This document shows, in pieces, positions 41,976 to 45,322 of a DNA stretch of 64,000 nucleotides; the first letter of the stretch is position 1, and every line of letters begins with the position of its first letter. The DNA comes from Cellulomonas timonensis (GTDB lineage: Bacteria > Actinomycetota > Actinomycetes > Actinomycetales > Cellulomonadaceae): NCBI RefSeq assembly GCF_900046455.1, contig NZ_FCOT01000008.1:248001-312000 (forward strand), read 5' to 3'. The position numbers and the translations under genes were made by a program. A model generated the notes under the pieces. It made no database searches. It saw nothing but the letters and a program-made list of their open reading frames with translations, and was not told the DNA's origin.

Positions 41976-44243
41976 TCAGCCGATGCCCAGCACGAACGGG
42001 AACACCGCCGACGCGCCCGCCTGCCTCAGCAGGCGGGCGCCGACGGTGAGAGTCCAGCCGGAGTCGGTCCGGTCGTCGAGCAGCAGCACTGAACGCCCCG
42101 GGAGGCCAGCAGACGCCGCAGGCGACAGGTCGAGTTCGAGGCGGCGCACCACACCGGCCAAGCGCTGAGCGGAGTTCACGTCGTGCCGGGCCGCGGGGGC
42201 GCCCCCGATCGGCCGCAGCGTGCCCACCACGGGGATGCCGAGGTGACGGGAGACGCCGTCGGCCAGGTGCCGTAGCAGTCCCGGACGGGTGAGGGACTCC
42301 ACCACGACGATCCCCGCCGGCGCCGGGTCAGGCGACCAGCCCGCGAGGACGTCGAGCACCGGCTGCCGCAGCGACGCCGGGAGCGCGTCAGGCGCCCCAT
42401 GCCCCTCGGGAGCCCCGTGGCCGTCGGGCGTCGTTGGTGTGAACAGGTCGCGGAGCAACCCGCCCCAGCCGATCCCGTCCAGCCGCGCCACCGCACGGCC
42501 CGTCTCGGCCCGCTCGTCGGCCGCGATCCGGCCGCTCAGCTCCACACCCAGCGACGCCATGCCCGACGGCCACATCTTCCGGGGCTCCACCTCCACGCCC
42601 GGCACCGCGAGCCGCTCCCGGGCGCTGGCGATCTCCGCCTCGTCGGGAGCCGACCCGGCGCTCGCCCCGCCGCACCTGTCGCAGCGCCCGCAGCGCCAGC
42701 CGTCCACCAGCTCCGGGTCATCGAGCGCACGGCGAAGGAACGCCATGCGGCAGCCGTCGCCGCGCACGTAGTCGACCATCGCCTGCTGCTCCGCACGCCG
42801 GGCCGCGCTCACGCGCTCGTACCGCTCGGCGTCGTAGGACCACGGCTGGCCCGTGGCCTCCCAGCCGCCGCGCACCCGGTGCACCGCGCCGTCCACGTCG
42901 AGGACCTTGAGCATGAGCTCGAGCCGCGCCCGGCGCAGGGTCACCTGCGTCTCCAGAGCGGCCGTCGAGAGCATCCCCCGGCTCTCCAGCGCGGCCAGCG
43001 CCGCGCGGACCTCCGTCTCGGGCGGGAAGGCCATCGAGGCGAAGTAGTCCCAGATCGCCTTGTCCTCGCGGCCCGGCAGCAGGACCACCTCGGCGTGCTG
43101 TGTGGCGCGGCCGGCGCGCCCGACCTGCTGGTAGTACGCGATCGGCGAGGCGGGAGCCCCGAGGTGCACCACGAACGCGAGGTCGCCCTTGTCGAAGCCC
43201 ATGCCGAGCGCCGACGTGGCGACCAGCGCCTTGACCCGGTTGGCGAGGAGGTCTGCCTCGGCGACCTCACGCTCCGCGGTGTCCGTCTGGCCGGTGTACG
43301 CCCGCACGTCCAGCCCGACGCCCCGCAGATACTCGGTGACCTGCTGCGCCGCCGCCACCGTCAGGCAGTAGACGATCCCCGAGCCGTCGATGCGGGGGAG
43401 GTTGTGCGCGAGCCAGGCGAGCTGCGCCGAGGTGTCGGGGAGCCGCGCCACCGACAGGTGCAGGCTCTCGCGGTCGAGGGGCCCGCGGAGCACCAGCACG
43501 TCGGCCAGGGCGTCCGCGCTCTCCTCCGTCGCGCCGGTGACAGCGAGCTGCTCGGCGACATCGTCGGTGACGCGGGAGTTCGCGGTGGCGGTGGTGGCCA
43601 GCACCGGGATCCCGGCAGGCAGATCGGCGAGGAGCGTGCGGATGCGCCGATAGTCGGGCCGGAAGTCGTGTCCCCAGTCGGAGATGCAGTGGGCCTCGTC
43701 GATCACCACGAGCCCGGCGTCAGCGGCCAGCCGGGGCAGCACCTCGTCGCGGAAGCCCGGGTTGTTGAGCCGCTCGGGAGAGACGAGCAGCACGTCCACC
43801 TCGCCGGCCTGCACGCGGGCCTGCACATCGGCCCACTCCGTGACGTTCGAGGAGTTGATCGTCTCGGCGCGGATCCCCGCACGCTCGGCCGCGGCCACCT
43901 GGTTGCGCATCAGGGCGAGCAACGGGGAGATGATCACCGTCGGCCCGGACGGCTCAGCCCCGGTCGCGCCCGCGCGCAACAGCGCTGTCGCCACGAAGTA
44001 CACCGCTGACTTCCCCCACCCGGTGCGCTGCACGACGAGCGCCCGGCGACGGTCGGCCACCAGGGCCTCGACCGCGCGCCACTGGTCGTCACGCAGCCGC
44101 GCGTCAGGGCTCCCGACGAGGGCGCGGAGCGCCGACTCTGCCTGCTCGCGCAGTGCCTCGCGGGGGACAGGGGAGTGCTGGGGGCGCTCACCGGCGGTGG
44201 CAGGCGGGGGGGGGGGGGGGATGGGGCCGTCTCTTTTACACAT
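41976..44243 (-). CDS. recQ: RecQ-family DNA helicase with C-terminal PRTase-like domain; 5' end artefactual
   Basis: ATP-dependent 3'-5' helicase of the actinobacterial RecQ type. Seen: QWRAVEALVADRRRALVVQRTGWGKS (key: RTGWGKS Walker A), DEAH box VVIDEAHCISDWGHDFRPDY, helicase C motif VGRAGRATQHAEVVL, and a cysteine cluster WRCGRCDRCGG. A final domain with LLLDDRTDSGWTLTVGARLLRQAG resembles phosphoribosyltransferases (PRPP-loop). The first 12-14 codons (MCKRDGPIPPPPPP) are encoded by adapter and poly-G sequence at 44206-44243, so the true start is missing or corrupted; genuine protein begins around ATAGERPQHSP. No alternative start is visible close by. Confidence 0.85.
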   Translation of the reverse strand: MCKRDGPIPPPPPPATAGERPQHSPVPREALREQAESALRALVGSPDARLRDDQWRAVEALVADRRRALVVQRTGWGKSAVYFVATALLRAGATGAEPSGPTVIISPLLALMRNQVAAAERAGIRAETINSSNVTEWADVQARVQAGEVDVLLVSPERLNNPGFRDEVLPRLAADAGLVVIDEAHCISDWGHDFRPDYRRIRTLLADLPAGIPVLATTATANSRVTDDVAEQLAVTGATEESADALADVLVLRGPLDRESLHLSVARLPDTSAQLAWLAHNLPRIDGSGIVYCLTVAAAQQVTEYLRGVGLDVRAYTGQTDTAEREVAEADLLANRVKALVATSALGMGFDKGDLAFVVHLGAPASPIAYYQQVGRAGRATQHAEVVLLPGREDKAIWDYFASMAFPPETEVRAALAALESRGMLSTAALETQVTLRRARLELMLKVLDVDGAVHRVRGGWEATGQPWSYDAERYERVSAARRAEQQAMVDYVRGDGCRMAFLRRALDDPELVDGWRCGRCDRCGGASAGSAPDEAEIASARERLAVPGVEVEPRKMWPSGMASLGVELSGRIAADERAETGRAVARLDGIGWGGLLRDLFTPTTPDGHGAPEGHGAPDALPASLRQPVLDVLAGWSPDPAPAGIVVVESLTRPGLLRHLADGVSRHLGIPVVGTLRPIGGAPAARHDVNSAQRLAGVVRRLELDLSPAASAGLPGRSVLLLDDRTDSGWTLTVGARLLRQAGASAVFPFVLGIG

Positions 44244-44273
44244 CTGACGCTGCCGACGATCTTACGCGGGGGG
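44206..44273. other. Sequencing artefact: poly-G run plus Nextera adapter and index
   Basis: A run of 15 G (44206-44220) is followed by CCGTCTCTTTTACACATCT (44227-44245), which differs at two positions from the Nextera mosaic-end read-through CTGTCTCTTATACACATCT. It continues exactly with GACGCTGCCGACGA (44246-44259), the read 1 adapter continuation. The next eight bases TCTTACGC (44260-44267) have the position and length of an i5 index; I recall the reverse complement GCGTAAGA as index S517. Six further G follow, as in two-colour chemistry when signal is lost. This is not biological sequence. Confidence 0.95.
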
Positions 44274-44688
44274 ACATTGGACGGGTGCCGTGGCTCGCAC
44301 ATGAAAGAGTGGAACGCTTGGCCCAGGGGCCCCATGGGGCGTCGGCGGTGGGGCGGGTGTGCCGCCACAGGTGCAGCAGCGGTGGGTATCCGCCGCAGTC
44401 GGGCAGCGGTACGGCGCCGTCCGCGCCGGCGCATGGGCCGTTCTCCGCGGGGTAGACGTGCCCCGCCCCCTCGCACTGCTCCATCCGCTTGTACTCCGTC
44501 AACACCGCCACCGGATCACCCGCCGCACTCGCCTCTGCCCAGTCCTCCGCGGCGGTATTCGCGAGCGCGCCTTTGATGATTGCGGAGTTGTCCTTCATTG
44601 ATCCGCCAAAGTCAGGCGACGTGGATGCGCCTTGAGCCAGGCCGACGAGCAGGAGTCCAACGGTCAGGCTCTTGCCTGCCTCACGCAT
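44236..44688 (-). CDS. Small secreted protein, 3' end replaced by adapter sequence
   Basis: A frame of 150 codons starting at ATG 44688, overlapping the stop of the DUF6318 gene. The N-terminus MREAGKSLTVGLLLVGLAQG is a signal peptide-like hydrophobic stretch. The mature part contains EYKRMEQCEGAGHVYPAENG and the Cys/Trp-rich LPDCGGYPPLLHLWRHTRP and APWGPWAKRSTLSC. I do not know a function; such proteins occur next to DUF6318 lipoproteins in Cellulomonas relatives (recollection). The last 12 residues (SPRVRSSAASDV) are translated adapter, so the real C-terminus lies beyond the artefact or is lost. Confidence 0.6.
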   Translation of the reverse strand: MREAGKSLTVGLLLVGLAQGASTSPDFGGSMKDNSAIIKGALANTAAEDWAEASAAGDPVAVLTEYKRMEQCEGAGHVYPAENGPCAGADGAVPLPDCGGYPPLLHLWRHTRPTADAPWGPWAKRSTLSCASHGTRPMSPRVRSSAASDV

Positions 44689-45322
44689 CGGGGGCCTGGT
44701 TTTCGAGTGCCCGGATGAGCCAGCGGTCCGACTCATGAACGACAATGAGGAGCGGCTTCGAAGTCACCGACTTCAGCTGCTCCGACTGCGTGTTCCCGGC
44801 GGAGTCCTTCACTGTTGTGGGCCCTTGGGTCATCTGCATCTCAACGCTGAAGGAAGATCCTGGGATCAGTTCGACGCCGCTGACATCTGCGACTGAGATC
44901 GCAGCCCCTTCGATTCTCTGGCCCAAGCCGTGCATCTCCTCAACTTTGGTCGCAATTCCCGTGCACGTCAGGCATTCGGGGTGACTGAGGGCATTCCACT
45001 CGGCGAGGTCGCCGGTGTTGTACACGTAGGGGTAGAGCTCGACGAAGTACGTGGCGGCGGCAATCGCGCCCTCGACGCTGACCTCGTCCATCGCGGTGGG
45101 GCGTTCGGGCTTGGGGGAGCGGGTAGGGCTCGGCGTCGGCGTCGGTGTGGGCGTGGCCACGACGTCGGTGCCAGTGGGGCTGGGCAGTGGGGCCCTGTCT
45201 TCGTCGGTGCACGCGGTCAGGCCGAGCGAGATGGCCAATGCCGCAGCCGCCGCCCACACGGCCGGTGGCCGGCGCCGATGCGTCTCGCGAACGTCGGGGA
45301 GCGAGCGCGGCGACGGGATCAT
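44681..45322 (-). CDS. DUF6318 family lipoprotein
   Basis: A 213-aa predicted lipoprotein. A twin-arginine-like RRRPP stretch, a hydrophobic helix and a lipobox LTAC (AAAALAISLGLTACTDEDR) are seen. A Pro/Thr/Ser-rich spacer (TPTPTPTPSPTRSPKPERP) leads to the DUF6318 domain with ATYFVELYPYVYNTGDLAEWNALSHPEC (key: YFVELYPYVYNTGD, HPECLTC) and SDRWLIRALENQAPDA at the end. Function unknown; this actinobacterial family resembles small NTF2-like accessory domains (inference). The downstream gene overlaps its stop. An alternative start a few codons further in is possible. Confidence 0.78.
   Translation of the reverse strand: MIPSPRSLPDVRETHRRRPPAVWAAAAALAISLGLTACTDEDRAPLPSPTGTDVVATPTPTPTPSPTRSPKPERPTAMDEVSVEGAIAAATYFVELYPYVYNTGDLAEWNALSHPECLTCTGIATKVEEMHGLGQRIEGAAISVADVSGVELIPGSSFSVEMQMTQGPTTVKDSAGNTQSEQLKSVTSKPLLIVVHESDRWLIRALENQAPDA

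Follow-up and report, generated by a model that had tools for sequence, protein, structure and literature searches.

The locus considered here raises the question of whether the DNA between a recQ-family helicase gene and a secreted-protein gene in Cellulomonas timonensis belongs to that genome at all. In the 64,000-nucleotide stretch that we analysed (the window), a long run of G is closely followed by a string that we identify as Nextera adapter, including the i5 arm at 44246 to 44259. A sequence-only reading had described 15 G, a Nextera match of 31 in 33 bases (mosaic end and i5 arm combined), eight index-like bases and six more G, and all of these were reproduced at their positions. Its interpretation, an adapter artefact with sequence missing or wrong, proved right in the main. 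We are virtually certain that the feature is an artefact of assembly, in which read-through adapter would have survived trimming and served as filler for a join, and that it is not biology. The parts of the locus are given below, where G002 is a sister genome and G003 is a complete relative in a single contig.

41976 to 44243, minus strand: recQ-family helicase frame (DEAD and Helicase_C domains), its first codons made of adapter and G run
44206 to 44220, plus strand: 15-G run, probably the misread native G-rich leader of recQ; the ungapped G002 alignment passes through it
44221 to 44226, plus strand: insert end, ATGGGG; the G002 alignment stops at 44224 and the mosaic end starts at 44227
44227 to 44245, plus strand: Nextera/Tn5 mosaic end with two errors, CCGTCTCTTTTACACATCT (17 of 19 bases match)
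44246 to 44259, plus strand: i5-side (read 2) Nextera arm, exact, GACGCTGCCGACGA (14 of 14)
44260 to 44267, plus strand: TCTTACGC, whose reverse complement is exactly GCGTAAGA, i5 index S517 of a printed table; arm plus index recur exactly at three further genome sites
44268 to 44317, plus strand: six G and unplaced sequence, by geometry the position of P5 and read run-off; without homology to G002 or G003 before 44317-44318
44236 to 44745, minus strand: truncated secreted-protein frame, its last codons made of adapter and unplaced sequence, lacking the PKD part (from frames, domains and homologues)

At the junction the mosaic end is followed directly by the arm, as in Nextera read-through. 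In 100 dinucleotide-shuffled versions of the window the mosaic end was never matched at three or fewer mismatches, and no second match at four or fewer was found elsewhere in the 64 kb. The next longest run of G or C in the window after the 15 G has 7 bases. The six G directly after the index (44268-44273) occupy the expected start of P5; a P5 match in the first 30 bases after the index was not significant (a score equalled or exceeded by 2255 of 5000 shuffles), and a P5 tail was clear after the index at two other sites of the assembly, L012 (0 of 500 shuffles) and L017 (2 of 500). In the index table printed in Appendix B of PMC7589761, S517 is given as GCGTAAGA, and that appendix also contains N703. 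The claim that reads from the recQ side ran into adapter is borne out by the exact arm, the catalogued index and the ending of G002 homology 2 bases before the mosaic end, and it is further backed by numerous other adapter copies of this library elsewhere in the assembly. The stretch 44206-44273 is anomalous, as had been described, but the affected part is longer, and homology to the relatives returns only at about 44317-44318.

Comparison with the relatives suggests how much was lost. On the recQ side the G002 alignment reaches 44224 (89.3% over 525 bases), and the G002 contig C6 ends 51 bases past that point. On the other side, the G002 contig C19 matches the window from 44318, and also the hisC neighbourhood, and ends 11 bases beyond. 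With both contigs ending at the junction, this position is a break in the sister assembly as well. Two points separated by 698 bases in G003 have 152 bases between them in the window; of these 152 bases about 61 are native, and the other 90 or so are adapter and unplaced sequence. Provided that the spacing in this strain is that of G003, about 640 bases are therefore missing. The contig sequence is wrong at the junction, with some 640 bp lost when measured against this relative. Sequence is absent at the join as the earlier reading had supposed, but the missing piece, which by G003 includes a PKD domain, is not the short one that it had expected.

The consequences for the two genes are direct. 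Two codons fall within the mosaic end, namely the ATG of the recQ frame (44241-44243) and, at 44236-44238, the stop of the truncated secreted-protein frame, in agreement with the claim that adapter supplies the first codons of the one and the last codons of the other. The window copy of the secreted protein matches only residues 29-149 of a 313-residue protein, the rest of which is encoded by the absent segment in G003, the PKD domain occupying residues 197-259. By this comparison, the piece missing here comprises the greater part of a domain from a real gene. Intact relatives of the gene do exist, as G002 carries two full-length copies. A second case was found in C10 of the present genome (L031, G000:C10:156867-157885), where a homologue of the secreted-protein copy on G002 contig C12 lacks about 400 bases and the gap is bridged in frame by a mosaic end with three errors plus GAC. 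The resulting in-frame chimeric protein could pass for natural loss of a domain. A third copy, in C11 (L225, G000:C11:116800-118300), lacks 363 bases relative to the G002 C12 copy, and its homology resumes almost where that of the C10 copy does. No mosaic end was seen at this deletion, so part of that loss could be real or otherwise caused. The G+C content of the absent segment (0.73 in G002 C12 and 0.741 in G003) is close to that of the window (0.727), so G+C alone does not explain the breaks. The genome's own C10 and C11 copies are 89.5% alike over 401 bases, and likeness between gene copies may be a cause of assembly breaks.

The same adapters occur throughout the assembly, which has 4,057,828 bases in 13 contigs and is counted as 99.98% complete. 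We found 36 mosaic-end matches with two or three mismatches and none with zero or one; a reversed mosaic-end control gave no match in the assembly, and no mosaic-end match was found in the six other genomes of the genus searched. When sites within 500 bp were merged, the 36 sites made up 31 places. All 36 were read, and by set thresholds 21 carry the i5 arm, 5 carry the i7 arm and 10 are unclassed; some of the unclassed sites (L014 minus and L023 minus) are plainly adapter by eye, and a few of the ten could be chance matches. The i5 arm with S517 is exact at four sites including the window, and occurs with one to three mismatches at 14 more, some of them by chance. The i7 copies carry AGGCAGAA (N703), with errors in some and the index legible at several, and P7 follows N703 in five matches at three or fewer mismatches, one of them exact. 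An arm-based search added more degraded traces, eight of which were accepted by eye (L228, L023 plus, L229, L230, L232, L233, L234 and L235), while L231 was taken as chance. The legible indexes are catalogued ones, the same throughout the assembly (S517 and N703), and fit a single library, N703/S517. The view of the locus is thereby widened beyond the earlier reading: the copies are degraded, internal, of one library and spread over about 31 places.

To compare the other joins, the flanks of 16 of 24 prepared loci were searched in G002 and G003, and 11 G002 regions were then compared. With L031 counted in, 12 edges were scored, and at 10 of them G002 homology breaks off no more than 3 bases from the mosaic end; at the right edge of L014 and at L024 the distance is 6 and 19 bases, and L012 and L025, which align across the insert, are uninformative for this purpose. 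At most places where both flanks of a join were found, they lie close together in G002. At three of ten loci the edges carry repeats of 42, 123 and 97 bp (100%, 84.6% and 75.3% alike). Together with the lost segments, these repeats indicate that the joins not only add adapter but also delete or duplicate native sequence.

The pattern of errors points to selection. Among the 21 i5 sites, none had zero or one error in the mosaic end, whereas the arm's first 19 bases had so few in 8 of 21 (Fisher p = 0.0034), and at the 13 sites found via the arm at two or fewer mismatches the mosaic end carries 2 to 5 errors. Since the two segments adjoin within each copy, selection acting on the mosaic end is the best explanation of this statistically supported contrast; trimming or screening presumably caught the copies with one mismatch or none. 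In a class-wide sample, 22 of 296 genomes, the present one (G000) included, had a mosaic-end match at two or fewer mismatches, and the reversed control gave one match each in three genomes. Among the places listed, the lowest error count was 2 in G000, G248 and G158, 1 in G187, G137 and G223, and 0 in G257, G266, G119 and G045. A phasing signature was also considered: at 70 of 85 mosaic-end mismatches the base is identical to one of its neighbours, compared to 45.7 expected in a naive test, but with the replacement letters permuted within the reference base the count was 57 against a mean of 53.0, a value reached by 1817 of 20000 permutations, and the signature was rejected.

The copies also differ from known cases in where they lie. 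Of the 36 mosaic-end sites, 35 are deep inside contigs; the remaining one is within 100 bases of an end, and among the 35 the shortest distance to an end is 9,827 bases. Each of the four exact copies of the arm with S517 (a 22-mer) is over 29 kb away from the ends of its contig. In other genomes of a collection with the same exact 22 bases, in contrast, 119 of 120 sites among the matches listed are within 100 bases of a contig end; this comparison covers at least 119 stretches, may omit the window's own genome, and draws many stretches from a few MAG studies, which are therefore not independent. The sole listed site away from an end (L101, QBLP01000160.1, 4806-4827) is 872 bases from it and comes from a Halanaerobium MAG whose contigs are named scaffolds. 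Moeller et al. (2024; PMC11536531) describe library adapter left in published microbial assemblies to the detriment of their accuracy, a situation like the present one. That survey counted exact copies of a 12-base TruSeq adapter, which were concentrated at contig ends, and trimmed the ends where adapter was within 300 bases. In comparison with such TruSeq, exact and terminal copies, the present ones are Nextera, have at least two mosaic-end errors and lie at least 9.8 kb from an end at 35 of 36 sites. Internal and error-bearing copies would escape a screen of that type. A literature search for internal, error-bearing adapter joins found none in the text that it covered, with PMC11536531 as the nearest work; others may exist. 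We infer that insufficiently trimmed reads, used in scaffold joining or gap filling, lie behind the difference between internal and terminal positions.

These observations are best explained as follows. A short Nextera insert was read through, presumably by read 2, into the i5-side adapter; the adapter is identified from its sequence, and the assignment to read 2 follows from the geometry of such libraries. Read errors then probably let the adapter survive the trimming or screening that removed cleaner copies. Assembly had failed to recover the true sequence upstream of recQ, so that error-rich reads would have been taken as filler when scaffolds were joined or gaps filled. This would have fused the recQ side with the secreted-protein side at a loss of about 640 bp, and the same process probably acted at about 30 other places of the assembly.

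The 15-G run allows more than one reading. Opposite to it, G002 has 15 G-rich letters in register, four of which are not G, and we therefore read the run as a probably misread native leader of recQ and not as true divergence, on the alignment to one relative only. The poly-G that had been counted with the adapter is thus present at 44206-44220 but probably represents genomic leader. It is unlikely that the G runs are instead dark cycles of two-colour Illumina chemistry produced at read run-off. Two G runs do flank the adapter in the window, and long G or C runs also adjoin the mosaic end at L021 and L036, as dark cycles would predict; but the longer run precedes the adapter, where the read still has template, and the G-rich stretch of G002 is of equal length and in register. 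Moreover, run-off after P7 is A-rich at two of four sites (14 and 22 of 25 bases A), with 9 and 6 of 25 A at the other two, and is G-rich at none.

The joins might also have been made directly by de Bruijn assembly through shared adapter or low-complexity k-mers, in place of gap filling. Shared adapter k-mers are present across the genome, and converging adapter pairs occur at L014, L015, L020 and L025. Such k-mers alone, however, would not ensure that most joins are locally correct with respect to G002, and the terminal position of exact arm-plus-index copies elsewhere (119 of 120 sites among the matches listed) also argues against this route, which we regard as rather improbable compared to filling with error-rich reads. 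That the copies are scars of a genuine Tn5-family or miniature transposon is vanishingly improbable: although engineered Tn5 uses this very mosaic end, inverted mosaic ends lie close together at L025 and some edges are duplicated, the edge repeats are absent at seven of ten loci and unequal where present, so that no target duplication of constant length was found, what lies inside is not native sequence but library arms, P7 and catalogued indexes, six congeners have no mosaic-end match, and the window site loses sequence rather than gains it. L025 (G000:C13:644738-645801), with two inverted mosaic ends 26 bases apart and the i5 arm between them, resembles a tiny transposon but is adapter.

For an assembly counted as 99.98% complete, about 31 places with adapter mean that the gene calls across them are wrong, as with the RecQ start and the secreted-protein end at the window and the in-frame chimera at C10. 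With at least two mosaic-end errors and near-all positions internal, the copies would be missed by exact-match and contig-end screens; a tolerant screen for the mosaic end plus arm would find such scars. There is perhaps an even chance that buried, error-bearing adapter copies form a distinct and poorly screened class of misassembly, in which clean copies are taken out by trimmers and submission screens, the sharp lower error bound of the survivors records the screening threshold and the glue deletes or duplicates sequence and fabricates proteins. Among 50,697 phage records 26 contained the exact 33-mer of mosaic end and i5 arm, as did 8 of 72,556 records of plasmids and none of 20,395 from E. 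coli. In some of the phage and plasmid records the exact copy coincides with an annotated gene; H7 (a phage terminase subunit) and H5 (a long tail fibre) are examples.
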